From an uncultured Roseobacter sp. (GTDB lineage Bacteria; Pseudomonadota; Alphaproteobacteria; Rhodobacterales; Rhodobacteraceae): a DNA stretch of 64,000 nt. Both the position numbers and the translations under genes were made by a program. Below are positions 2 to 52,016 of the stretch, piece by piece (the stretch's first letter is position 1; each line of letters begins with the position of its first letter). Where the stretch lies: the NCBI RefSeq assembly GCF_947499265.1, contig NZ_CANMNK010000001.1:395001-459000 (forward strand), given 5' to 3'. The notes beneath the pieces were generated by a model. The model did no database searches. It saw only the letters and a list, made by a program, of their open reading frames with translations, and had not been told where the DNA came from.

Positions 2-1465
2 GAGGCGATTGCCGCAGGCACAAAGGGAGCAGACCCCGGGGAGCTTTGGCAGAAGAAAGCGGGTCAGAAAGCGCGGGACGTCATGCAAAACCTGGCCGAC
101 CACGCCGGGTTCGGCACGAGTATGAGCGCCTCCGATTACAATGATCTTGTTGGCGCGCTCTTGTCCGGCGAGGAGATCCGGGACCGGGACGCGCCACATC
201 CCAACATCATGATCTGGGGCACGCTGGAAGCGCGGGTGCAGGGGGCCGATCTGGTCATTCTGGCCGGTCTCAATGACGGCACCTGGCCCGAAGCACCACC
301 GCCTGATCCCTGGCTGAACCGGGCGCTGCGCCATCAAGCGGGGCTGTTGTTGCCCGAACGACGTATCGGGCTGTCGGCACATGACTACCAGCAGGCCATC
401 GGTGCTCAGGAGGTTTGGCTCACCCGCTCGATCCGCTCCGACGATGCCGAAACGGTCGCCTCGCGCTGGGTGAACCGGCTGCGCAATCTGCTCGATGGAT
501 TGCGGGATCAGGACGGTCCGCAAGCGCTGGCGGATATGTTGGCGCGGGGTGATGCGTGGTTGGCGCGCGTGCTTGCCTTCGAGCAAGTGGACAGGACTGA
601 CCCGGCCCCACGGCCATCGCCACGCCCTCCCGTGGCCGCACGCCCGCGGGCCCTCTCCGTGACCGAAATCAAACGCCTGATCCGCGATCCTTACGCGATT
701 TACGCCAAACATGTGCTGAAACTGACCCGCCTTGGCCCGCTTGTGCAAAGCCCTGATGCGCTGATGCGCGGGACGGTGGCCCATGACATCATGGAGCGGT
801 ACATCAAGGATACGTTGTCTGATCCATCGCTGCTGACGGCGGCTCACCTGAAGCATGTGGCGCGGCAGGTGATGGCCGAAGAGGTCCCATGGCCCGCAGC
901 CCGGGCGATGTGGCTGGCACGCATCGACAAGATCGCAGACTGGTTTGCCGCGCGCGAGGGCGCGCGCCGCGCCTACTCCGCACCGGTCGCATTTGAAGGG
1001 CAGGCAAAGGGGGAGCTGACCTGGCCGGACCTCGGGTTCACGCTCACGGCGCGCGCCGACCGCATCGACCGGACAGACGCCGGTGACGTCGTGATCTACG
1101 ACTACAAAACGGGGAAACCGCCCACAGCCAGACAGCAGGCGACATTCGACAAACAGCTCCTAATCGAGGCCGCGATGGTCGAAGAAGGCGCATTTGAAAC
1201 CCTTGGCATTTGCCACACCGCAATGGCCATTTTCATCGGGTTAGGCTCACATCCTGATGAGGTTGCCGCCCCGTTGGACGAGGAGCCGCCCCGGGAAATC
1301 CTGACCAATCTCCGCGCGCTGATCGAGGCATATCTCTCCCCCGGTCAGGGATTCACCGCGCGGCGCATGATGCAGGAAGACAAGATCGCCGGCGACTATG
1401 ATCTGCTAGCCCGGTTTGGCGAGTGGGATGCCACGGATGATCCTGTGCCCGAGGATCTGACATGA
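2..1465 (+). CDS. addB: AddB, double-strand break repair nuclease/helicase subunit (3' part only)
   Basis: This is the C-terminal part (487 residues visible) of AddB, the partner of AddA in the AddAB helicase-nuclease that resects double-strand breaks for RecA loading. The open frame continues past the left edge, so the true start and the helicase-like half are missing. The C-terminal PD-(D/E)XK nuclease motif is clear near visible residues 362-371 (VVIYDYKTGK), where D and K are catalytic by family knowledge. Only one cysteine is visible, so the four-cysteine iron-sulfur clasp of Bacillus AddB is not evident here. The gene ends in an ATGA overlap with addA, which implies translational coupling. 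Confidence 0.93.
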   Translation, partial: EAIAAGTKGADPGELWQKKAGQKARDVMQNLADHAGFGTSMSASDYNDLVGALLSGEEIRDRDAPHPNIMIWGTLEARVQGADLVILAGLNDGTWPEAPPPDPWLNRALRHQAGLLLPERRIGLSAHDYQQAIGAQEVWLTRSIRSDDAETVASRWVNRLRNLLDGLRDQDGPQALADMLARGDAWLARVLAFEQVDRTDPAPRPSPRPPVAARPRALSVTEIKRLIRDPYAIYAKHVLKLTRLGPLVQSPDALMRGTVAHDIMERYIKDTLSDPSLLTAAHLKHVARQVMAEEVPWPAARAMWLARIDKIADWFAAREGARRAYSAPVAFEGQAKGELTWPDLGFTLTARADRIDRTDAGDVVIYDYKTGKPPTARQQATFDKQLLIEAAMVEEGAFETLGICHTAMAIFIGLGSHPDEVAAPLDEEPPREILTNLRALIEAYLSPGQGFTARRMMQEDKIAGDYDLLARFGEWDATDDPVPEDLT

Positions 1466-4400
1466 CGCGCCGCGATGAGGCCACCGAAGCACAGGTGCGC
1501 GCAGCGCGCCCCGACGCTTCCACCTGGTTGGCGGCAAATGCCGGATCCGGCAAGACGCGGGTGCTCACAGATCGGGTCGCGCGGTTGCTGCTGGGCGGGG
1601 CTCAACCCCAGCAGCGAGTTCAACCACAGCACATCCTCTGCCTGACCTATACCAAAGCTGCCGCGTCAGAAATGCAGAACCGCCTGTTCAAACGGCTTGG
1701 CGCCTGGGCAATGCTGGAGGACGCCGCGTTGCATGCCTCATTGCGCACCTTGGGCGTCGAGGGGCAGATTGGCCCCGAAAGGCTGCGCGACGCCCGTACG
1801 CTTTTCGCCCGTGCGATCGAAACGCCCGGCGGGTTGAAGATCCAAACCATCCACTCCTTCTGCGCCTCGCTGCTGCGTCGGTTTCCGCTGGAGGCCCAGG
1901 TCAGCCCGCAATTCACCGAGATCGAGGACCGCGCCGCCGATCTGCTGCGGGCGGAGATTGTCGATCTGATGGCGGATGGGCCGGAGGCCGCCCTCGTGGA
2001 CGGGATCGCGCGTCATTACACCGGGGAGGATTTCAGCAAACTGACCCGCGCCATCATCGGGCACCGCGAGGCACTGGCCCGCCCCCTGACATGGCCGAAG
2101 ATCTTGGGGCTGTTTGATCGACCTGCCGACCTGTCCGAAGAGGCAATTTCCAGTTCGGTCTTTCTGGGCGGCGAGGCGGAGCTGATCGCCGACATCCTGC
2201 CTGCCATGCGCGAAAAGGGTGGGAATGACGCCAAGGCCGCTGAAAAACTGGCGCAGATTGGCGCGTTAACCTATGATGCCTTGGCGAAGCTGGAGAGCGT
2301 CTTCCTCACAGGCGCCAGCGCTAAGTCGCCGTTTTCGGCAAAACTGGGGAGCTTTCCCACCAAGCCAACGCAGGCCGTTCTGGGCGACCGAATGCCCGCG
2401 CTTGACGCGTTTATGGAACGGGTCGAGGCCGCCCGCGAGCCCAGGCTTGCCCTCGCAGCGGCACGAAAAACCAAAGCGCTGCAAGACTTCGCCGCGCGCT
2501 TCATCGCCCGTTACGAAGAACAAAAACTGCTGCGCGGATGGCTCGATTTCGACGATCTGATCTTCAAGGCGCGCGACCTGCTGAACGATCCCGCCGTGGC
2601 CGCATGGGTCCTATTCCGCATTGATGGCGGCATTGATCACATCCTCGTCGATGAAGCGCAGGATACCAGCCCAGCGCAATGGGATGTCATCCGCAAACTG
2701 GCCGCAGAGTTTTCCAGCGGTGAGGGCGCGCGCAAGGACGTGGCGCGCACCTTGTTCGTCGTGGGCGACAAGAAACAGTCGATCTATTCCTTTCAAGGCG
2801 CGGACCCCAGAGAATTCGACCGGATGGAGGCCGAGTTCAAATCCAAACTGCAGGCCGCCGAGCACGAATTTCAGAGCCTGACATTGGCCTATTCCTTCAG
2901 ATCCTCCAACGCCATTCTGAATATCGTCGACGCGGCATTTGATCATCAGACGGAGGCGGGGTTCAGCGACGACGCCAAACATATCCCCTTCAAGGGGGAA
3001 ATGCCCGGTCGGGTCGATATCTGGCCGGTGATCGAAAGACAGCCAGTGGGCGATGACCGGCTCTGGTATGACCCGCTGGACCGGCGGGGCGAGCATCACC
3101 ACGCCGTGCTGCTGGCGCGGCAAATCGCCAGCCAGATCAAACAGATGATCGACAGCAAACAGACCATTCCAATGGATGTGCCGGGCCGCGACGAGCAGGC
3201 GAAACGACCCGTGACGCCGGGAGATTTTCTGATCCTGGTGCAGCGCCGTTCAGAGCTTTTTGCCGAGATCATTCGCGCATGCAAGATGCACGATCTGCCG
3301 ATTGCCGGGGCCGACAGGCTCAAGGTCGGTGGTGAATTGGCCGTGCGGGATCTGGCGGCGCTTTTATCCTTTCTCGCCGTTGCCGAAGACAGCCTGTCGC
3401 TTGCCACGGCGCTAAGATCGCCATTGTTCGGATGGTCGGAGCAAGAGCTGTTCAGCCTGGCGCACGGACGCAGCGAAGAGCACCTGTGGCAGACGCTGCG
3501 CAACCGCGTCGATGATTATCCCGAAACGCTGGCTGTTTTAAACGATCTGCGTGCCAATGTTGATTTCCTGCGGCCCTACGATCTGATCGAACGGATTTTG
3601 ACGCGGCATCAGGGACGGCGGCGCTTGCTGTCCCGTTTGGGCACCGAAGCCGAAGACGGGATCAACGCGCTGCTGTCCCAGGCACTGTCCTACGAACGCA
3701 ACGCGGTGCCCAGCCTGACCGGTTTTCTGGTCTGGATGGAAACCGATGATCTGGAAATCAAACGCCAGATCGACAGCGCCTCGGACCAAATCCGTGTCAT
3801 GACAGTGCATGGCGCAAAGGGCCTGGAAGCCCCCATTGTGATCCTGCCCGATACGGGCAAGCGCGACGTCCAGATCAAGGACGATATCATTAAACTCGAT
3901 GGTCACGCGACTTGGAAAACCAACGCCGCCGAGATGCCGCGCGCCATGGCCGAGAGTGTCGATACGTTGAAAACGTCTCAGATCGAGGAACGTCTGAGGC
4001 TGCTATATGTGGCTCTAACACGGGCAGAAAAGTGGTTGATCATCGCGGCAGGCGGCGAGCTTTCGAGAAAGAACGACAGCTGGTACCAGATCGTTGACGC
4101 CGCATTGGACCGAACAGGCGCGGCGGAGGTGTCCTTTCAAGGGTTGGAGATCAAGCGGCACGCGCATGCGGATTGGGATGGGTTGCCCGATGCACAAACA
4201 CCCGAGATCACAGCGCCCCGCGCAACACTCGATCCGCTGTTCGGACGTGCGGCCCCCGAACATCCGGCGCTGGTTGAAATTCTCTCCCCCTCCGATCTTG
4301 GCGGTGCCAAGGCCCTGGCAGGTGAACAGGGTCAGGACGAGGAAACCGCCAAGGCCTACGGGAACATGGTCCACCTTTATCTTGAGCACCTGGCCCGCGT

Positions 4401-4857
4401 GGACAAATCAGATTGGTCAGTTGTCGCCGAAAATCTTTCAACCGGGAATGTGATGGAAAGCCAAGCCCTTGCCGAGGCTCAAACGGTGCTGGAGACACCA
4501 GCGCTGCGCGATCTCTTTGAGCAAAGCACCTTGGCCGAAGTTCCGGTTTCTGCGGCATTTGGCACCGCACGCATCCATGGCGTGATCGACCGTCTCATCA
4601 TTACGGGTGACCGGGTGCTGGCCGTGGATTTCAAAACAAACAGGATCGTGCCGGAGACTGCGGAAACCTGTCCTTCCGGACTTTTGCGACAGATGGGCGC
4701 CTACGCCCATGCGCTTGCTCAGATTTTCCCAGACAAGCGGATTGAGACGGCTATTTTATGGACAAGAACCTGCACGCTGATGCATTTGCCGCACGAAATC
4801 GTGACGGGAGCGTTACAAAGCACGCAACATCTTGACGACCGCGAGGTGGCTACATAG
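1462..4857 (+). CDS. addA: AddA, double-strand break repair helicase-nuclease
   Basis: A 1131-residue UvrD-like superfamily 1 helicase with a C-terminal nuclease, working with AddB on DNA ends. The Walker A motif (NAGSGKT) is at residues 26-32, the Walker B/DEAQ box (ILVDEAQD) near 394-402, the late helicase motifs (VMTVHGAKGLE; RLLYVALTRA) in the middle, and the RecB-type nuclease motif (VLAVDFKTNR) near 1053-1062. Length and order match alphaproteobacterial AddA. The start overlaps addB by 4 nt (ATGA), and trxA follows after 36 nt. An addB-addA-trxA order is common in this group, so the assignment is firm. Confidence 0.96.
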   Translation: MTRRDEATEAQVRAARPDASTWLAANAGSGKTRVLTDRVARLLLGGAQPQQRVQPQHILCLTYTKAAASEMQNRLFKRLGAWAMLEDAALHASLRTLGVEGQIGPERLRDARTLFARAIETPGGLKIQTIHSFCASLLRRFPLEAQVSPQFTEIEDRAADLLRAEIVDLMADGPEAALVDGIARHYTGEDFSKLTRAIIGHREALARPLTWPKILGLFDRPADLSEEAISSSVFLGGEAELIADILPAMREKGGNDAKAAEKLAQIGALTYDALAKLESVFLTGASAKSPFSAKLGSFPTKPTQAVLGDRMPALDAFMERVEAAREPRLALAAARKTKALQDFAARFIARYEEQKLLRGWLDFDDLIFKARDLLNDPAVAAWVLFRIDGGIDHILVDEAQDTSPAQWDVIRKLAAEFSSGEGARKDVARTLFVVGDKKQSIYSFQGADPREFDRMEAEFKSKLQAAEHEFQSLTLAYSFRSSNAILNIVDAAFDHQTEAGFSDDAKHIPFKGEMPGRVDIWPVIERQPVGDDRLWYDPLDRRGEHHHAVLLARQIASQIKQMIDSKQTIPMDVPGRDEQAKRPVTPGDFLILVQRRSELFAEIIRACKMHDLPIAGADRLKVGGELAVRDLAALLSFLAVAEDSLSLATALRSPLFGWSEQELFSLAHGRSEEHLWQTLRNRVDDYPETLAVLNDLRANVDFLRPYDLIERILTRHQGRRRLLSRLGTEAEDGINALLSQALSYERNAVPSLTGFLVWMETDDLEIKRQIDSASDQIRVMTVHGAKGLEAPIVILPDTGKRDVQIKDDIIKLDGHATWKTNAAEMPRAMAESVDTLKTSQIEERLRLLYVALTRAEKWLIIAAGGELSRKNDSWYQIVDAALDRTGAAEVSFQGLEIKRHAHADWDGLPDAQTPEITAPRATLDPLFGRAAPEHPALVEILSPSDLGGAKALAGEQGQDEETAKAYGNMVHLYLEHLARVDKSDWSVVAENLSTGNVMESQALAEAQTVLETPALRDLFEQSTLAEVPVSAAFGTARIHGVIDRLIITGDRVLAVDFKTNRIVPETAETCPSGLLRQMGAYAHALAQIFPDKRIETAILWTRTCTLMHLPHEIVTGALQSTQHLDDREVAT

Positions 4858-4893
4858 GTTCACCCTCCAAGCATAGCCTGTCAGGAGAGCACG

Positions 4894-5214
4894 ATGGCCA
4901 CCCTTGCTGTAACGGATGAAACTTTCGATGCCGAAGTGAAGAATTCAGATATCCCCGTTGTGGTGGATTTCTGGGCGGAGTGGTGTGGCCCCTGTAAGCA
5001 GATCGGCCCGTCGCTTGAGGAACTGTCCACCGAGATGGATGGCAAGGTGAAGATCGTCAAAGTCAACGTCGACGAGAACCCGAACTCGCCCTCGCAAATG
5101 GGGGTGCGCGGTATTCCTGCCCTGTTCATCTTCAAGGACGGTCAGGTCGTGTCCAACATGGCAGGAGCAAAACCAAAAGCCGCCTTGCAAAGCTGGATCG
5201 AGGAATCGATCTAA
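4894..5214 (+). CDS. trxA: Thioredoxin
   Basis: A 106-residue cytosolic thioredoxin that reduces protein disulfides with electrons from thioredoxin reductase. The active site WCGPC spans residues 30-34, preceded by the typical VVVDFWAEW strand. The cis-proline segment (GIPALF) lies near residue 75. Length is standard and there is no signal peptide. The start has a good ribosome-binding site (AGGAG about 7 nt upstream) and lies 36 nt after addA, so it may be co-transcribed while also having its own promoter. A hairpin after the stop probably ends the unit. Confidence 0.97.
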
Positions 5215-12505: not shown

Positions 12506-12988
12506 ATGGCTGAAGCCGAAGCACAACAACAAGAGCCGCAGATGCGTGTCCTCGGACAATTCATTCGCGACATGTCTTTTGAAAACATCATGGCGCAAAA
12601 AGGCGCGCCCGCGGATGTGACCCCGGATGTTCAGGTTCAGGTCAATCTGGATGCGAAAAAACGCAGTGTCGAACACCAGTATGAAACGTCGATCAAGCTG
12701 AACGTGACCTCCAAGGCCAAAGACAGCGACTCCACCCTGTTCGTGCTGGAAATCGACTATGCCGGGATCTTCCACATCGACAATGTGCCCGAAGACCAGC
12801 TGCATCCTTTCCTGCTGATCGAATGCCCGCGGATGATTTTCCCGTTCCTGCGCCGCGTGGTCAGCGATGTGACACGGGATGGTGGCTTCCCGCCGCTGAA
12901 CCTGGAAAACATCGATTTCCTGTCGCTCTACCGCAATGAATTGGCGCGCCGCCAGGCGGAAGAAGCGCCCAAGAAAGCCGACGCGTGA
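12506..12988 (+). CDS. secB: Protein-export chaperone SecB
   Basis: A 160-residue cytosolic tetrameric chaperone that keeps preproteins unfolded and delivers them to SecA. Family features are the N-terminal FIRDMSFEN stretch, alternating beta-strand sequence in the core, and the AGIFHIDNVPED and CPRMIFPFLRRVVSDVTRDGGFPPL segments near residues 90-130. The ribosome-binding site CAGGAG is about 9 nt upstream of ATG. It converges on dnaQ with a 3-nt gap, leaving no room for a separate terminator. Confidence 0.97.
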   Translation: MAEAEAQQQEPQMRVLGQFIRDMSFENIMAQKGAPADVTPDVQVQVNLDAKKRSVEHQYETSIKLNVTSKAKDSDSTLFVLEIDYAGIFHIDNVPEDQLHPFLLIECPRMIFPFLRRVVSDVTRDGGFPPLNLENIDFLSLYRNELARRQAEEAPKKADA

Positions 12989-14261: not shown

Positions 14262-15109
14262 TAGCGCAAAACCGCCGCGCGGGAGTCATCATCCACATCC
14301 GGTCGCGGCCCGAACCACCGTTCGAACCCGGGGACTGCCTGATGCAACAGCATGCCCAACCCGTCCACGGTCACGCATCCGCGTTCTTCGGCGACCTGCA
14401 ACAATTTTGTTTTCAGCGGGGTATAAACCAGATCAGTCACCACCGTCGATTTTTTCAACCCGTCCAGTGGCACCCGCATCTCTGGTTTGCCCACCATGCC
14501 CAGGGAAGATGTGTTCACAACCAGACTGGTCTCTTCCAGCATATTTCCAGCCTGTACCCAATCGATCACCCTGATGCGATTACCGAAATCCGACTGCAGT
14601 TTTTCCGCGCGCACCCGCGTCCGGTTCGACAGTAGGATTTCCGGCACGCCAGCATCTAGCAGCGATGCGATTACCGCGCGCGCCGCGCCGCCCGCGCCTA
14701 GAACAGCGGCGGCCCCTTTTGTCGGTATCCAGTTGGGCGCGCCAGCTTTCAGATTTTCCAGAAACCCGTAACCATCTGTATTATCAGCATGAATCTTACC
14801 ATCTTTACGAAAGATCAGCGTATTGGCTGCGCCGATCAGCGTCGCGCGATCCGTGATGAGATCCGCAATGTCCAGAACCGCTTCCTTATGTGGGATCGTG
14901 ATGTTGACACCCACAAATCCGGCCTTGGGCAAGGTAGTCAAGACGTCTCGCAAATCGCGCGCGGCCACATCCATTGGAATGTAGAACCCTTTGACGCCAT
15001 GTTTGTTGAGCCAATGGCGGTGTACCCGTGGTGACTTCGAATGCGCAATTGGGGACCCGATGACGCCCGCCAAGGGGATTTTATCCGGGGATTTTGACGT
15101 ATTCGTCAT
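14261..15109 (-). CDS. aroE: Shikimate dehydrogenase (NADP+)
   Basis: A 282-residue shikimate-pathway enzyme reducing 3-dehydroshikimate to shikimate. The substrate-binding SPIAHSKSP motif is at residues 19-27, the catalytic lysine is in NITIPHKE (K75), and the NTDGYGF aspartate follows near residue 110. The NADP-binding loop GAGGAARA is near residues 138-145. It overlaps maf by 4 nt (ATGA) and meets coaE at its stop, so all four leftward genes are tightly coupled. Confidence 0.96.
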   Translation of the reverse strand: MTNTSKSPDKIPLAGVIGSPIAHSKSPRVHRHWLNKHGVKGFYIPMDVAARDLRDVLTTLPKAGFVGVNITIPHKEAVLDIADLITDRATLIGAANTLIFRKDGKIHADNTDGYGFLENLKAGAPNWIPTKGAAAVLGAGGAARAVIASLLDAGVPEILLSNRTRVRAEKLQSDFGNRIRVIDWVQAGNMLEETSLVVNTSSLGMVGKPEMRVPLDGLKKSTVVTDLVYTPLKTKLLQVAEERGCVTVDGLGMLLHQAVPGFERWFGPRPDVDDDSRAAVLR

Positions 15110-15705
15110 CGTTCCAACTCTCCACGCAGCGTCAGGTAGGCCAGCAGCTCCAGCAGGGGCAGGCCCAGCACATTAAAGTAATCCCCTTCGATCCGGGTGA
15201 AAAGCCGCACGCCTTCTTCTTCAAGCTTATAGGCCCCGACGGCATGGCGGATGCTGTCCCAATTCCGCGCAACATAGCCGATGATGTAGTCATCCGTCGC
15301 ATCGCGCATCCGCAGACGCACCTGACCCACATGCCGCCAAACCGGCTTGCCGCCGTCATAGATTACTGCGGCTGATAACAGACTGTGCCGGTCATTGCGC
15401 AGCTGGTGCAATTGATCGATGGCCTCTTCGGGGGATTGCGGTTTTGAAAACAGCGTCCCCTGGTGATCCAACACCTGATCACAGCCCAAAACCAGCGCAT
15501 CCGGATTTTTGTCACTCACCTTGCGCGCTTTCATTTCGGCCAAGGCATCGGCGATATCACGCGGCGGCGCATTCTCTGCTAACATGGCGTCGCGCACCAT
15601 ATCTTCGTCGACCCGTCCGGGCTGAATCGTGAATTTGACGCCGGCCTGGCGCAGCATCTGGGCTCTGATTTCGGAGCCGGATGCCAATATGAGCGGCTGG
15701 GACAT
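15106..15705 (-). CDS. maf: Maf family nucleoside triphosphate pyrophosphatase
   Basis: A 199-residue house-cleaning enzyme that hydrolyses non-canonical or modified nucleotides. The N-terminal LASGSEIRAQML is the Maf signature (residues 7-18; usual form LASxSPRR), and the conserved GCDQVL and ATDDYIIGYV segments follow. The SEIRA variant of the SPRR motif is typical of one alphaproteobacterial subgroup, so I do not call it YhdE or YceF. It is the first gene of the leftward operon, and a DnaA-box-like 9-mer abuts its start codon. Confidence 0.92.
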   Translation of the reverse strand: MSQPLILASGSEIRAQMLRQAGVKFTIQPGRVDEDMVRDAMLAENAPPRDIADALAEMKARKVSDKNPDALVLGCDQVLDHQGTLFSKPQSPEEAIDQLHQLRNDRHSLLSAAVIYDGGKPVWRHVGQVRLRMRDATDDYIIGYVARNWDSIRHAVGAYKLEEEGVRLFTRIEGDYFNVLGLPLLELLAYLTLRGELER

Positions 15706-16107
15706 GTGTATAACCCTGTGAGCACCCTTAAGGATTTCTTAATAGTTTCTTCTGGGCAAAACAGCGAGATCACGCAAGAGCAAGAAGGGCTGGGGTCAGT
15801 CCAGATGTTCACGAAGATTAATACGCTGGTAGGAAGGATAACCGAGATCGTGTGAATAACAATTTCGTTGTGATCTTACCCACAGTTTTATACAGGCAAC
15901 GTGAAAAGAAAACCTATCTAACCGTTTGTTTTATATACATTATTATCCAAAATCAGAAGATATAAAATATCCGGATGAACTTTTTCCTCATCGGTAAAAC
16001 CCCGCGGATAAAATGATAATCCACAGAAATCCAAGACCCTACATAATCATCATCCTTTAATCTTTCTTTATATATTTATAAGAGAGGCAAACGGATCGGA
16101 GAGATGA
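15706..16107. other. Putative chromosomal replication origin (oriC) region
   Basis: This 402-bp stretch has no convincing gene and is far more AT-rich than anything else in the window. It holds matches to the DnaA box TTATNCACA: perfect ones on the minus strand at 15705-15713 and 15851-15859, and 8/9 matches on the plus strand at 15876-15884 (to TTATNCACA) and 15943-15951 and 16017-16025 (to TTATCCACA). AT-rich blocks lie at about 15925-15970 and 16051-16083 and could melt. Genes are transcribed away on both sides, and parS and parAB lie within 7 kb, as at other alphaproteobacterial origins. The call is inference from these signals; a GC-skew switch would confirm it. Confidence 0.72.
15728..15742. 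promoter_or_regulatory. CtrA-like motif TTAA-N7-TTAA in the putative origin
   Basis: TTAAGGATTTCTTAA matches the full CtrA consensus TTAA-N7-TTAA. It lies 23 bp upstream of the maf start inside the putative origin. In Caulobacter CtrA binds origin sites and represses initiation; whether that applies here is unknown. AT-rich sequence raises the chance of coincidence. Confidence 0.4.
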
Positions 16108-16557
16108 ATGACGGACCTACTTGCCCTTGGATATCCATGGATCAAGGCATTTCACATCATGTCCGTGATTGCCTGGATGGCGGGTTTGTTCTACCTGCCC
16201 CGGTTGTTTGTCTATCACGTAGAACAGGTCGGGCAAAGCGGGGAGACCCATGCGCTTTTTCAAACCATGGAGCTGAAATTGCTGCGGGTGATCATGAACC
16301 CGGCGATGATAGCGACCTGGGTGTTTGGTCTGTGTCTTGTTTTCACACCGGGCATTGTCGATTGGACAGCGATATGGCCCTGGACCAAGGCAGCGGGTGT
16401 TTTGGGGATGACCTGGTTTCATCACTGGCTGGGCTTGAGGCGGAAGGATTTCATTTCCGGCTCCAATGACCTGAGCGGGCGCCAGTATCGGATGATGAAC
16501 GAAGTCCCGACCTTGCTGATGGTTCTGATCGTGCTTTCGGTAGTCATCAAGTTCTGA
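16108..16557 (+). CDS. hemJ: Protoporphyrinogen IX oxidase HemJ (CopD-like membrane protein)
   Basis: A 149-residue membrane protein with four hydrophobic helices, matching HemJ, the oxygen-independent protoporphyrinogen oxidase of most alphaproteobacteria. The conserved histidine H16 and the IAWMAGLFYLPRLFVYH segment (residues 21-37) are characteristic. A GGAG ribosome-binding site lies about 6 nt upstream. It is the first gene to the right of the putative origin, transcribed away from it. The distant ferrochelatase at 50.9 kb would use its product. HemJ and UPF0093 are names for the same family. Confidence 0.88.
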   Translation: MTDLLALGYPWIKAFHIMSVIAWMAGLFYLPRLFVYHVEQVGQSGETHALFQTMELKLLRVIMNPAMIATWVFGLCLVFTPGIVDWTAIWPWTKAAGVLGMTWFHHWLGLRRKDFISGSNDLSGRQYRMMNEVPTLLMVLIVLSVVIKF

Positions 16558-19312: not shown

Positions 19313-21184
19313 GTGTTTCACGTGAAACATTTTGACGTTCTTGTTATCGGAGGTGGTCACGCGGGTGCTGAGGCGGCACATGCGGCGGCGCGGATGGGCG
19401 CACACACGGCCCTGGTCACCATGACCGAAGAGGGTATTGGTGCGATGTCCTGCAATCCGGCGATTGGCGGTTTGGGTAAGGGCCACCTCGTGCGTGAAAT
19501 CGATGCGATGGATGGCGTGATGGGCCGTGTTGCCGATAAGGCGGGTATCCAATTTCGCTTGCTCAATCGTCGAAAAGGTCCTGCGGTACAGGGTCCGCGC
19601 GCGCAATCAGATCGTCAGATCTATCAATCGGAAATGCTCTCGGAGATCAAATCTCGCGCCAATCTTTCAATCGTCCTGGGTGAAGTTGTTGATTTCAAGA
19701 TGCAAGGGGACCGTGTCACGGGCGTTTTCCTGCATGACGGCAGCGAGATGGATGCGACTTCTATCGTGTTGACCACAGGGACCTTTCTGCGCGGGGTAGT
19801 TCATATCGGTGACGTATCCCGATCTGGCGGTAGGATCGGTGAAAAGGCTTCCGTTAAGCTGGCTGAACGCATTGATTCCTTTGAATTACCGTTGGGTCGG
19901 CTGAAGACCGGCACGCCGCCACGTCTGGATGGAAAGACGATCAATTGGGAGGTTCTTCAGGAGCAGCCTGGGGATGAAGATCCAACCTTGTTTTCATTCA
20001 TGTCAAAGGGTGTAACCGCACGGCAGGTCAGCTGTGGCATAACGCATACAAATTCGAAAACGCACGACATCATCCGCGAAAACCTGTCGCGGTCCGCCAT
20101 GTATGGCGGGCACATTGATGGGGTGGGTCCGCGGTATTGCCCGTCGATTGAAGACAAGATTGTCCGGTTTGCAGACAAAGACTCCCACCAGATCTTTTTG
20201 GAGCCGGAAAGCCTATCCACAACCACCGTTTATCCGAATGGAATATCGACATCCTTGCCCGAATCTGTTCAGGAGGATTACGTTCATTCGATCTATGGCC
20301 TTGAAAATGCAGCGATTCTGCAGCCGGGGTATGCGATTGAATATGATTACGTTGATCCGCGTGCGTTGAGTGCCCAGTTGGCGTTGCCAAATGTGCCCGG
20401 ATTGTATTTGGCCGGACAAATTAACGGAACCACCGGATATGAAGAGGCGGCAGCGCAGGGATTGGTTGCCGGGTTGAATGCGGCGCTGGCGGCGCAGGGG
20501 CGTGACCCTGTGCATTTCTCGAGGTCTGAGAGCTATATCGGCGTTATGATCGACGACCTGACAACGCGCGGTGTGAGTGAGCCTTATCGCATGTTCACCT
20601 CGCGCGCCGAATTCCGGTTGTCTTTGCGCGCCGATAATGCGGATCAACGGTTGACGCCACTAGGCATAGATCTTGGGTGCGTTGGTGCGACGCGGGCAAG
20701 GGCTTACCTTGAGAAAGCGGAAAAGCTCGAAGTTGCGCGTGAATCGCTGAGTAAAAAGACATTTACACCGTCCCAGGCTTCTGAAGCTGGTATCAAAATC
20801 AATCAGGATGGCAGCAGAAGAACGGCCATGCAGCTTCTGGCATTCCCCGATGTATCGTTCGTGGAGATCACGGCTCTCGACGCAGGGTTCGAGGGGATCG
20901 AAGCGGAAACCCGAAAGCAAATGGAGAGAGAGGCGCTTTACGCGAATTATATTCAGCGACAACAGCGCGATATCGACCTGCTTCGTAAGGATGAGGCGCA
21001 GGTTATCCCGAGTGATTTTGCCTATGAGGGTTTGGAGGGTTTATCCAATGAGCTTAAATCCAAGTTGATCGCGGTAAAACCTTCCACGCTCGCGCAAATG
21101 TCTCGCGTGGATGGGATGACGCCGGCTGCGCTGACGCTAATTCTCGCGAAGTTAAGGCAGCGCAAGCGAAAGAAGTCAGCCTGA
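19313..21184 (+). CDS. mnmG: tRNA uridine-5-carboxymethylaminomethyl modification enzyme MnmG
   Basis: A 623-residue FAD enzyme, partner of MnmE. The Rossmann FAD motif is [12 protein letters not shown] near residues 11-22, and [15 protein letters not shown] follows. I choose GTG 19313, which aligns in length with the E. coli N terminus (MFxxxxFDV); GTG 19322 has a better-spaced GGAG, and an ATG at 19274 would overlap mnmE by 35 nt. A perfect parS site covers the first codons in every case, so the N terminus reads FHVKH because of it. The stop shares a base with the rsmG start (TGATG). Confidence 0.96.
19314..19329. promoter_or_regulatory. parS: parS centromere site 1, inside the mnmG 5' end
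   Basis: TGTTTCACGTGAAACA is a perfect 16-bp palindrome matching the bacterial parS consensus TGTTNCACGTGAAACA bound by ParB. It spans mnmG codons 1-6. Together with a second identical site and parAB 2.5-4 kb downstream it marks the centromere, about 3.3 kb from the putative origin. Confidence 0.93.
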
Positions 21185-21786
21185 TGACGTCGGATTTGAA
21201 TGTTTCACGTGAAACATTGAACCGATTGGAGTTATTCCATGGCCTTCTGAAAAAGTGGAATACGAAGATAAATCTGGTGTCCAAATCTAGTATTTCAGAC
21301 GCATGGGAACGCCATATCAATGATTCACTGCAAGTGTACCATCATGCGGGGGATGAAATAGTTTGGTCGGATATCGGAAGCGGTGGTGGTCTGCCGGGTC
21401 TTGTGGTCGCGATCTTGGCCAAGGAATTTCATCCGGATCGACATGTCACCATGGTGGAGAGTGACATTCGCAAATCCACCTTTCTACGCACCGTGATCCG
21501 TGAATTGGATTTGAAAGCTTCTGTTCTTGTATCGCGGATTGAGCAAACCACACCCATGAGCGCTGAGATCTTATCCGCACGGGCACTCGCGGATTTGGAT
21601 CAGCTGCTCCGATATGCGGAAATACATCTGACTCCGAGCGGGCGTGCGTTTTTTTTCAAAGGCGAAACCTGGGAAAAAGAGGTGGAGACAGCACGCAAGT
21701 CGTGGTCTTTTGATCTGGTTGCGCATAAAAGTAAGACGAACCCAAACGCTGCCATTCTTGAGGTGAAGGATATCCATCTTGTCTGA
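21184..21786 (+). CDS. rsmG: 16S rRNA (guanine527-N7)-methyltransferase RsmG (GidB)
   Basis: A 200-residue Rossmann methyltransferase that modifies G527 of 16S rRNA using SAM. The SAM-binding motif DIGSGGGLPG is near residues 63-72 and the family N-terminal LxxWNxKINLVSKSS helix is clear. The first residues read NVSRET because a perfect parS site is embedded in codons 6-12. The start shares a base with the mnmG stop, and the 3' end overlaps parA by 8 nt. Loss of RsmG gives low-level streptomycin resistance in other bacteria. Confidence 0.95.
   Translation: MTSDLNVSRETLNRLELFHGLLKKWNTKINLVSKSSISDAWERHINDSLQVYHHAGDEIVWSDIGSGGGLPGLVVAILAKEFHPDRHVTMVESDIRKSTFLRTVIRELDLKASVLVSRIEQTTPMSAEILSARALADLDQLLRYAEIHLTPSGRAFFFKGETWEKEVETARKSWSFDLVAHKSKTNPNAAILEVKDIHLV
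21201..21216. promoter_or_regulatory. parS: parS centromere site 2, inside the rsmG 5' end
   Basis: TGTTTCACGTGAAACA, identical to site 1 and 1887 bp from it. It is read in a different frame from site 1 (VSRET instead of FHVKH), so the DNA sequence and not a peptide is conserved. It lies 17 bp into rsmG and about 1.4 kb upstream of parB. Confidence 0.93.
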
Positions 21787-22588
21787 CCTATCACGCCCGG
21801 CTGGTCCGAAGATCATTTCGGTAGCGAACCAAAAAGGTGGCGTTGGAAAAACCACGACAACAATCAACTTGGCGGCAGCCCTGGTCGAAGCGGGGAAGCG
21901 CGTGTTGGTGGTTGATCTTGATCCGCAGGGGAATGCATCGACAGGCCTGGGTATCGAAACCGAAGATCGCGAATTAACGACCTACGAGCTTTTGCTCGAA
22001 GATATTGATCTTAAATCTGTTATTCTGCCGACTGTCACGCCAGGATTGCTCATTGTCCCCGCCACGGTGGATCTGAGCTCAGCAGATATCGAGCTGATTT
22101 CCAATGAAAAACGCAGTTTTCTGCTACATGATGCGTTGCGACAGACGGCGATGGATGCATTTGAGCTGGACTATATCCTGATTGACTGTCCGCCATCCCT
22201 GAACCTTTTGACGGTCAATGCGATGATCGCGTCGCATTCTGTGTTGGTGCCGTTGCAGAGCGAATTCTTTGCGCTGGAAGGGTTGTCGCAATTGATGCTG
22301 ACCATTCGTGAGGTGCGGCAAAGCGGAAATAAGGATTTGCGCATCGAGGGCATCGTTTTGACGATGTATGATCAACGGAATAACCTGTCCCTGCAGGTCG
22401 AGCAGGACGCGCGGGACAATCTGGGTGAGCTTGTTTTTAAAACACGGGTACCGCGAAATGTAAGGGTCAGCGAGGCACCATCTTTCGCGATGCCGGTTCT
22501 CACCTATGATACGGCATCAAAAGGCGCGCAGGCCTACCGGGCGCTGGCACGGGAAGTTCTGAGCAGAAATACAGAAAAAGTCGCATAA
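21779..22588 (+). CDS. parA: Chromosome partitioning ATPase ParA (Soj)
   Basis: A 269-residue deviant Walker ATPase that moves ParB-parS complexes along the nucleoid. The deviant Walker A KGGVGKTT is at residues 19-26 with the signature lysine K19. DLDPQGNASTGLG and the Walker B-like YILIDCPPSL follow. The start is TTG 21779, supported by GAAGGA about 8 nt upstream; it overlaps rsmG by 8 nt. parB follows after 10 nt. With two parS sites just upstream this is the chromosomal, not a plasmid, partition system. Confidence 0.96.
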   Translation: MSDLSRPAGPKIISVANQKGGVGKTTTTINLAAALVEAGKRVLVVDLDPQGNASTGLGIETEDRELTTYELLLEDIDLKSVILPTVTPGLLIVPATVDLSSADIELISNEKRSFLLHDALRQTAMDAFELDYILIDCPPSLNLLTVNAMIASHSVLVPLQSEFFALEGLSQLMLTIREVRQSGNKDLRIEGIVLTMYDQRNNLSLQVEQDARDNLGELVFKTRVPRNVRVSEAPSFAMPVLTYDTASKGAQAYRALAREVLSRNTEKVA

Positions 22589-22598
22589 GGGGGCTGAC

Positions 22599-23498
22599 AT
22601 GGCAGGTGGAGTGGATCGTAAACGAGGCCTCGGACGCGGCTTGTCTGCGTTGATGTCGGATGTTGCGGAAACGGAAAAGGTGGTCAGCACTGGACCAGCG
22701 GCAGCGGAACGCCTCATTCCGATTGAGCAGATTTCACCCAATCCGGACCAGCCCCGCAAAAGATTTGCAGAGGGTGATTTGGAGGATCTGGCAGCTTCCA
22801 TCCGCGAAAAAGGGGTCATTCAGCCGTTGATCGTGCGGGCGTTGCCAAGTGGACAATATGAGATCGTCGCGGGTGAACGTCGCTGGCGTGCGGCGCAGAT
22901 GGCCAAACTGCACGAACTCCCGGTTGTGGTGCGGTCCTTTACCGATGTCGAAGTGCTGGAAGTTGCGATCATCGAGAATATTCAACGGGCGGACCTGAAC
23001 CCGATAGAAGAGGCCGTGGGGTATCGCCAGCTGATGGACCGGTTTGGCCATACGCAGGAAAAAATGGCGGAGGCGCTTGGGAAGAGCCGTAGCCACATCG
23101 CGAACCTGCTGCGTCTGCTGAACCTGCCGGATGACGTGTTGGAGATGGTGCGCAAGGGTGATCTGAGCGCGGGACACGCGCGCGCGTTGATCACCGCTGA
23201 GAACCCATCGAAGATTGCCCAACAGATCATCAAGGGTGGTCTGTCCGTGCGCGCCGTTGAAGCGCTGGTGAAAAAAGAGCAATCCAATGGCGATGACAAT
23301 ATTTTCAGCGGGAACGCGAAGCCAAAGACCGAGACGAAGGATGCAGATACCAAGGCGCTTGAGGGAGATCTATCTGCCTCTTTAGGTATGAAAGTCGTAT
23401 TGAGCCACAAGCCAGGTCAGGAATCTGGTCAGATGACGCTACACTACAAATCCTTGGAAGAACTGGATGAACTGTGTCGGATGCTGAGCGGAAGCTAG
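22599..23498 (+). CDS. parB: Chromosome partitioning protein ParB (Spo0J)
   Basis: A 299-residue CTP-dependent DNA clamp that binds parS. The N-terminal segment (KRGLGRGLSALM) resembles the ParA-stimulating peptide, the CTP-binding box GERRWRAAQ is at residues 92-100, and ENIQR is at 126-130. The helix-turn-helix (EALGKSRSHIANLLRLLNLP) follows near 150-175, and the C-terminal dimerisation domain ends the protein. It converges on hemW with a 4-nt overlap. Confidence 0.96.
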   Translation: MAGGVDRKRGLGRGLSALMSDVAETEKVVSTGPAAAERLIPIEQISPNPDQPRKRFAEGDLEDLAASIREKGVIQPLIVRALPSGQYEIVAGERRWRAAQMAKLHELPVVVRSFTDVEVLEVAIIENIQRADLNPIEEAVGYRQLMDRFGHTQEKMAEALGKSRSHIANLLRLLNLPDDVLEMVRKGDLSAGHARALITAENPSKIAQQIIKGGLSVRAVEALVKKEQSNGDDNIFSGNAKPKTETKDADTKALEGDLSASLGMKVVLSHKPGQESGQMTLHYKSLEELDELCRMLSGS

Positions 23499-50945: not shown

Positions 50946-52016
50946 TTAGCCGATCCAGCCTTTGAGATTGTCGTCGATGACATTCGACAGCGCATGGATA
51001 TGCGTGTCATCATCGTTCAGGCAGGGGATGTAGGTGAAGTTTTCGCCGCCCGCCTCTTCAAAGCTTTCCTTGATCTCTTCGTTGATCTCTTCAAGCGTTT
51101 CGATACAGTCGGCGGAAAAGGCAGGCGCACAGACAGCGATGTTCTTTTTCCCGGCCTCCGCCAGTCTCGCAACCTCCTCGACGGTATAGGGCTGCAGCCA
51201 CTCTTCGGGACCGAATTTGGATTGGAACGTGGTGGTGATTTCCGTGTCCTCCCACCCAAGCCGTTCCTTCAGCAGCCGCGTCGTCTTCTGGCATTGGCAA
51301 TGATAGGGGTCGCCTTCCATCAGATAGCGAATGGGCACACCGTGATAGGAACAGACCAGAATGTCGGGCTTGGTTTCCATCCGCGCATATGCGCGCTCAA
51401 TCGATTGCGCAAGCGCCTCGATATAGTCCGGGCGATCAAAATACGGCTCCACGGTTCGGGTCACCGGCTGCCACTTCTCATAGGTCAACGCGCGGAAGAA
51501 TTCATCATTTGCGGTCGCCGAGGTTGCCCCAGCGTAGTGTGGATAAAGTGGGAAAAACAATATCTTACGGCATCCTGCGGCGGTCATTTCAGCAACTTTT
51601 GACCGCGTCGATGGATTGCCATACCGCATGCAGAAATCGACCATGACCTCATCGCCGTGACGCTTGTGCATCTCGGTCGTGATCTTGGCGGCCTGCGCCT
51701 TGGTGATGGTCATCAGGGGGCTTTCACCCTCGGCCTCGTTCCAGATGGATTTATAGGCGGCACCGCTGGAAAACGGGCGTTTGCTGAGGATGATCAACTG
51801 CAGCAGCGGCTGCCAGATCCAGGGGCTGTAATCGATCACGCGGCGATCCGAGAGGAATTCGTTCAGGTAGCGCCGCATCGACCAGTAATCGTAGTTGTCG
51901 GGCGTTCCCAGATTGGCCAGCAAAATTCCCACCTTTGGCGTCGCAATCGCAGGGTGATCGTCCTTGGCATGAGCCGGGCGAACCGTCACGGGCGCAGAGG
52001 CGCTGCTGTCCAGCAT
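50946..52016 (-). CDS. hemH: Ferrochelatase
   Basis: A 356-residue enzyme inserting Fe2+ into protoporphyrin IX, the last heme step. Family marks include ANLGTPDN, PLYPHYAGATSA, the metal-binding histidine in SYHGVPIRY, and PEEWLQPYT. An N-terminal extension of about 27 residues precedes the core. A later cysteine cluster (HCQCQKT; VCAPAFSADCIE) could bind an iron-sulfur cluster as in some ferrochelatases, which I only infer. It would use the product of hemJ (16.1 kb) as substrate. Confidence 0.96.
   Translation of the reverse strand: MLDSSASAPVTVRPAHAKDDHPAIATPKVGILLANLGTPDNYDYWSMRRYLNEFLSDRRVIDYSPWIWQPLLQLIILSKRPFSSGAAYKSIWNEAEGESPLMTITKAQAAKITTEMHKRHGDEVMVDFCMRYGNPSTRSKVAEMTAAGCRKILFFPLYPHYAGATSATANDEFFRALTYEKWQPVTRTVEPYFDRPDYIEALAQSIERAYARMETKPDILVCSYHGVPIRYLMEGDPYHCQCQKTTRLLKERLGWEDTEITTTFQSKFGPEEWLQPYTVEEVARLAEAGKKNIAVCAPAFSADCIETLEEINEEIKESFEEAGGENFTYIPCLNDDDTHIHALSNVIDDNLKGWIG

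Follow-up and report, generated by a model that had tools for sequence, protein, structure and literature searches.

The replication origin of Caulobacter crescentus (Cori) was mapped experimentally at hemE/COG1806 (PMC1914354). Cori combines DnaA, IHF, and CtrA sites in a single intergenic stretch close to heme genes, with parS within 8 kb (PMC1914354, PMC4468827). A marker-frequency maximum close to hemE is described for Hyphomonas (PMC6650430), and a hemE-linked origin was predicted for Sphingopyxis, in a gene cluster that is itself conserved and with both a putative unwinding element and conserved DnaA boxes in the gap (PMC4741004). Within the Rhodobacteraceae, oriC was predicted in 101 strains using Ori-Finder and manual curation (PMC6699656). 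The basal unwinding system (BUS) of Bacillus subtilis and other bacteria contains a DnaA box, a GC-containing spacer, and triplets with a lower-strand middle A, followed by an unwinding region, and that study predicts such unwinding modules throughout bacteria, Proteobacteria classes included (PMC8287927).

The window analyzed here is a 64-kb stretch of DNA (C1:395001-459000) from contig C1 of a 5.23-Mb draft assembly of 28 contigs. The nearest named relatives of its HemJ (87% identity) are Roseobacter, and the label "Roseobacter group" is therefore used. A sequence-only reading had proposed the gap between maf and hemJ as the chromosomal origin, and the skew minimum, a box cluster, unstable DNA, parABS, a fixed layout in relatives, and a class-wide module all agree with it. 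The maf/hemJ gap is very probably the oriC of the main chromosome. The features of the locus, in window coordinates, are as follows.

15106-15705, minus strand: maf, left flank (NCBIfam TIGR00172, 118.3 bits, cut-off 117.15)
15705-15713, minus strand: DnaA box 1, TTATACACA, perfect; within 3 bp of this place in 33/74 gaps
15706-16107, no strand: maf/hemJ intergenic region, proposed oriC (skew minimum, box density, AT content, synteny)
15728-15742, no strand: putative CtrA-type site TTAA-N7-TTAA, TTAAGGATTTCTTAA, one of 8 perfect copies in C1
15851-15859, minus strand: DnaA box 2, TTATTCACA, perfect; same place in 27/74 gaps
15876-15884, plus strand: DnaA box 3, TTACCCACA, 8/9 match; same place in 20/74 gaps
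15910-15969, no strand: least stable 60 bp of C1 by nearest-neighbor energy, first of two candidate unwinding regions; holds the mean AT peak of 80 gaps at 15917-15936
15919-15931, minus strand: putative IHF site, one mismatch to the IHF consensus WATCAANNNNTTR; same place and strand in 26/74 gaps
16017-16025, plus strand: DnaA box A, TAATCCACA, 8/9 match to TTATNCACA; invariant in 12 aligned Roseobacter-group gaps
16027-16035, plus strand: second box B in degenerate form, AAATCCAAG, differing from TTATCCACA at 4 positions
16036-16042, plus strand: spacer ACCCTAC, with the conserved CCCTAC
16043-16057, plus strand: five DnaA-trio-like triplets, ATA ATC ATC ATC CTT (other strand 3'-TAT TAG TAG TAG GAA-5')
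16058-16083, no strand: conserved T/A-rich stretch past the triplets, second candidate unwinding region; kept in 12 gaps
16108-16557, plus strand: hemJ, right flank (NCBIfam TIGR00701, 141.6 bits, cut-off 138.05)
19314-19329, no strand: parS, perfect TGTTTCACGTGAAACA
21201-21216, no strand: parS, perfect TGTTTCACGTGAAACA
21779-22588, plus strand: parA, with ParA/MinD-family matches, none above an NCBIfam cut-off; named from these matches and its place before parB
22599-23498, plus strand: parB (TIGR00180 parB_part, 197 bits, cut-off 58.45)

The kind of origin is well known, and origins of the Rhodobacteraceae were already predicted by the same criteria (PMC6699656). As far as the text of that study goes, its origins and the present gap share DnaA boxes, a local GC minimum, and closeness to the skew minimum and parAB; that text gives neither flanking-gene names nor an element map, whereas here the flanks are maf and hemJ and the elements are mapped. 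Cori resembles the gap in its combination of sites near heme genes and in its parS distance, but it is flanked by hemE and COG1806 and carries five CtrA sites against one full site here (PMC1914354, PMC4468827). The Sphingopyxis origin shares the conserved gene cluster, the conserved DnaA boxes, and the putative unwinding element, the likeness being one of description rather than of element letters; unlike the gap it lies beside hemE, and it is a prediction only (PMC4741004). In the origin literature searched, supplements apart, maf and hemJ are not named as origin flanks.

The gap is 402 bp long with 61.7% AT and is the most AT-rich 400-bp stretch in the window; AT is 48.7% and 50.3%, respectively, in two further gaps measuring 396 and 332 bp. 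The earlier description of a long AT-rich noncoding stretch is accurate. So is its placement of parS and parAB 3-7 kb away: the distances run from 3.2 to 7.4 kb, and the two perfect parS sites at 19314 and 21201, which are followed by parA and parB, are the only ones in C1. The genes were also said to run away from the gap on both sides. This holds for maf on the left and hemJ on the right, but secB (12506-12988, plus strand), further to the left, points toward the gap. The window has no Rfam match at the gathering threshold and no tRNA, and an RNA element in the gap was rejected.

Cumulative GC skew was calculated for C1 joined from 49 stretches (970,416 bp, 2500 masked). The curve forms one V with its minimum at C1:410618, which is window position 15618, within maf and 88 bp to the left of the gap. 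A skew minimum at this locus had been named in advance as a supporting result, and on C1 this is where the minimum falls, the other contigs being covered by samples of C2-C11. All 20 of the 20-kb bins to the left of it are negative and 23 of the 27 to the right are positive. Permuting the 10-kb blocks of C1 2000 times never produced a V as deep. The motif GGGNAGGG, which we take to be KOPS, changes its strand preference at the same point, from 17 plus/36 minus on the left to 47/14 on the right. The least-squares change point is at 411 kb with a wide 95% bootstrap interval of 374-458 kb; skew alone therefore places the origin to about ±40 kb, and the 88-bp agreement is closer than the method can promise. 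The fine placement follows from the box clustering, the helix stability, the synteny among relatives, and the conserved module.

The other contigs were represented by 91 stretches (1.82 Mb) from C2-C11, with C12-C28 outside the sample. Each of C2-C7 has one dominant sign of the skew, and in C2, C5, and C6 it is uniform. A single bin of C3 is zero, and small bins of opposite sign number two in C4, one in C7, and one in C8, that of C8 being its last (-13). C10 gave -802 and then +264 in its two 20-kb samples and may be a separate replicon or contain a rearrangement; C11 is represented by one sample.

Perfect copies of TTATNCACA occur at 15705 and 15851 on the minus strand, as had been claimed. 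The 8/9 matches previously listed at 15876, 15943, and 16017 were found on the plus strand, but that list was incomplete, since 15931 (plus strand) is also an 8/9 match. The number of matches with at most one mismatch in the whole window (24 observed, 21.9 expected) is unremarkable. Their clustering is unusual: the stretch 15700-16110 has six of them, whereas its 500 mononucleotide shuffles gave 0.52 on average and never as many as six. The gap is also the densest 420-bp DnaA-box window of C1, with six boxes at no more than one mismatch, two of them perfect, against at most four elsewhere. Nowhere in the sampled parts of C2-C11 do two perfect boxes fall within 420 bp of sequence. A lone perfect box, TTATCCACA, lies at 51538-51546 (minus strand) inside the open reading frame 50946-52016.

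The gap holds the least stable 60 bp of C1 and is surpassed in AT content by only one other 400-bp window of that contig. The latter (64% AT) is at C1:793529-793928 and has a perfect TTAA-N7-TTAA inside it at 793735. Among the features by which an oriC is recognized, the gap has a DnaA-box cluster and AT-rich unstable DNA, with parABS nearby; it does not have the hemE-COG1806 flanks of the Caulobacter/Rickettsia type.

Eighty named loci, mostly titled Rhodobacteraceae or its genera, were gathered with a HemJ query, so that the choice hinges on HemJ likeness. Divergent maf and hemJ surround a gap of 359-478 bp in 79 of the 80; the remaining locus (L139) ends before maf and was left out of all gap comparisons, and the 80 gaps compared below are the window plus the 79 loci. 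Where a locus reaches far enough, the gap usually has dnaQ-coaE-aroE-maf to one side and rho-mnmE-mnmG-rsmG to the other. In L117, a Gemmobacter MAG, aroE and maf stand about 3.7 kb apart (1343-5076), whereas little DNA separates them elsewhere, and this suggests an insertion or an assembly fault.

Site positions were counted in the 74 gaps with lengths of 385-440, the six others of the 80 falling outside this range. DnaA boxes recur at offsets -1 (minus strand, 33 gaps), 145 (minus, 27), 169 (plus, 20), 289 (minus, 18), and 311 (plus, 24); an IHF-type site recurs at offset 214 (minus, 26 gaps) and TTAA-N7-TTAA at offset 20 (16 gaps). In shuffled gaps, a procedure that ignores kinship, the best place was reached at most three times for a minus-strand box and at most four times for any of these sites, the IHF and CtrA types included. 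In the 12 aligned Roseobacter-group gaps, conservation is higher over 16016-16085 (mean 1.54 bits) than over 15720-16014 (0.80 bits). The motif TTCTGRGCAAA (window 15750-15760), kept in most of the 12, corresponds to no site known to us. GANTC methylation sites are absent from the gap of the window and number none or one in the 12 Roseobacter-group gaps. Three loci from Donghicola and a related MAG (L075, L076, L078) have 11 GANTC (CcrM) sites in 445-447 bp (gap plus 50 bp), where 0.85-0.93 are expected from the flanks, and this pattern of sites suggests a methylation-controlled origin in the Donghicola line.

The most conserved part of the gap consists of the box TAATCCACA at 16017, CCCTAC, the trinucleotides, and a T-rich run. 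The most constrained DnaA box is this one and neither of the perfect 9-mers. Cori has instead the G-box, whose letters we take to be TGATCCACA. Across the 80 gaps the module reads as box A (approximately TAATCCACA), box B (approximately TTATCCACA) about 9 bp further on, a GC-containing spacer ending in CCCTAC, triplets such as ATC ATC ATC, and the T-rich run. The place of box B has 1-2 mismatches in 38 of the 80 gaps and 4-6 in all 12 of the Roseobacter group. Box A is the stronger in 34 gaps and box B in 37, and they are equal in 9. Mapped onto a tree that covers 73 of the 80 gaps, the stronger-box label changes 8 times, compared with 29 for shuffled labels; A is usually the stronger in the Roseobacter part of the tree and B in the Rhodobacter part, with exceptions including L086 and L127. 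A position-weight scan placed 78 of the 80 gaps above all 400 shuffles, a result that is partly by construction, the weights having been trained on the same gaps.

Mean AT over the 80 gaps peaks twice, near 15917-15936 and at 16057-16076, where it is 84%. The most AT-rich 60 bp of a gap falls in the first block in 18 of the 80, in the second in 25, and outside both in 37. There are two candidate opening sites.

The module resembles the BUS (PMC8287927) in its DnaA box, GC-containing spacer, triplets with a lower-strand middle A, and unwinding region beyond, and many relatives have BUS-like tandem boxes. In contrast, the triplets here are mainly 3'-TAG-5' rather than 3'-GAT-5', and the downstream box is degenerate in the Roseobacter group. 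The strict rule published for the BUS requires a DnaA box (at most 2 mismatches) 0-16 bp from at least 3 NAN triplets (PMC8287927). The window has the box and five triplets with a spacer of 17, one base over the limit of 16. The rule holds at the module in 24 of the 80 gaps and anywhere in the gap in 46 of the 80, compared with a mean of 10.5 and a maximum of 14 for shuffled gaps.

For a sequence-only model of the module, 75 of the 80 gaps, among them that of the window, served as the training set; L085, L117, L134, L137, and L140, with module scores of 20 or less, were dropped. In its own genome it gives 60.3 bits at the gap, which as a training sequence scores partly by construction, and 15.8 bits at the next best place. 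Matches at E ≤ 0.01 occur in 97 of 289 genomes of the class. The loci of the best 30 of these 97 were inspected; many of the matches in the 67 genomes with weaker scores may be due to chance. Flanks were identified by Pfam checks of 20 flanking frames and otherwise by tblastn. Excluding the own genome, 28 of the best 29 matches adjoin hemE, COG1806, maf, hemJ, or rho. Four are of the same family, with maf/hemJ. Among the 25 loci outside the family, 22 have hemE as a neighbor, and 16 of those 22 also contain COG1806. Of the remaining three, one is located between COG1806 and rho, another between maf and rho, and L258 at none of these genes. The hemE, COG1806, and maf loci with a match come from the genomes of the class that were searched (Caulobacter and Rickettsia lay outside the test). 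In the own genome hemE is at C7:198654 and COG1806 was not found in the assembly; neither gene was found in the 80 relative loci as fetched. From these neighbors, the simplest reading suggests that the origin kept its place while hemE moved away and COG1806 was lost. The module is not claimed as unreported because a hemE-linked origin (PMC4741004) and bacteria-wide predictions (PMC8287927) are already described.

The CtrA-type site occurs at the same place with at most one mismatch in 16 of the 74 gaps, mainly in Roseobacter and Roseovarius, and in 11 of the 12 Roseobacter-group gaps (the exception is L070). Four Roseovarius loci (L083, L086, L109, L122; not L114) keep the half-sites with a different spacer, and the site is also present in single other loci, L141 and, a few bases off, L103. 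The site label changes 5 times on the tree of 73 of the 80 gaps, compared with 14.6 for shuffled labels. A CtrA gene scores above cut-off in the own genome at C2:581491. In a review, CtrA sites in origins are said not to have been seen beyond Caulobacter species and possibly Rickettsia prowazekii (PMC4468827), and a further account reports them in the origins of Wolbachia and relatives (PMC1914354). In Dinoroseobacter, the CtrA phosphorelay is described as tied to quorum sensing (PMC6473078). The CtrA-type site and the clade-wise switch of the stronger box are the less expected features of a known kind of origin. A two-part proposal is offered on these patterns tentatively, with more doubt than confidence. 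The Roseobacter/Roseovarius site beside the leftmost DnaA box would allow the CtrA phosphorelay to act directly on the start of replication, and the stronger box, either B next to the triplets (mostly Rhodobacter side) or A about 9-10 bp further out (mostly Roseobacter side), would force DnaA to enter the triplets in a different register. From its position, CtrA might instead act on maf, the start of which is 22 bp away.

The analysis establishes where the skew switches, that the boxes cluster and the helix is weak, that the layout is fixed in relatives, and that a homologous module lies at origin-type loci elsewhere in the class. Every binding and opening step, and the restraint of initiation by CtrA, we infer as follows. 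DnaA, whose gene is about 56 kb to the left, would bind the spaced boxes at 15705, 15851, 15876, and 16017. IHF would bend the DNA at 15919-15931 and bring the left boxes to the right-hand module. DnaA would then pass from box A at 16017 onto the single-stranded triplets at 16043-16057 and, to let the helicase load, open either the T/A-rich stretch or 15910-15969, where the helix is weaker still. CtrA at 15728-15742 would restrain initiation, and ParB-parS, 3-5 kb away, would separate the copied origins.

The gap could be a mere divergent promoter region in which the DnaA boxes regulate maf and hemJ. In its favor, some 22 bp separate the end of the conserved block from the hemJ start, and the CtrA-type site is 22 bp upstream of the maf start. 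Of the 25 matches inspected outside the family, however, 22 have the module next to hemE rather than hemJ and two more have it next to rho, and the switch in skew and KOPS would be left unexplained. That the gap is only a promoter region is very unlikely, and a plain hemJ or maf promoter was rejected on the module's other neighbors across the class. The probability is lower again, at the level of a slight chance, that the true origin is near dnaA (C1:353915), about 56 kb to the left, with the gap serving as an accessory cluster that titrates DnaA. The bootstrap interval (374-458 kb) approaches dnaA to about 20 kb without reaching it; the skew rises slightly to 360 kb and then falls to its minimum at 410.6 kb, and 420-bp windows near dnaA have at most one perfect or two imperfect boxes. 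An origin beside dnaA was rejected on this course of the skew and the few boxes there.

Skew presumably reflects history rather than current use, and a recent switch of origin could have left the gap inherited but idle. The elements in the gap are nevertheless intact and conserved, C1 has no second box cluster of equal strength, and the sampled parts of C2-C11, the rest of which could hold one, lack a pair of perfect boxes within 420 bp; we regard an idle origin as the most improbable of these explanations and give it hardly any weight.

The analysis places the origin in a draft genome and provides a testable map of its elements. Despite the exchange of neighboring genes, the likely unwinding module can still be recognized in some members of the class (E ≤ 0.01 in 97 of 289 genomes), and it could help to locate origins in draft alphaproteobacterial genomes in which the flanks differ. 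The box switch and the CtrA-type site bear on the tolerance of unwinding to spacing and on the action of CtrA at the origins of the Roseobacter group.
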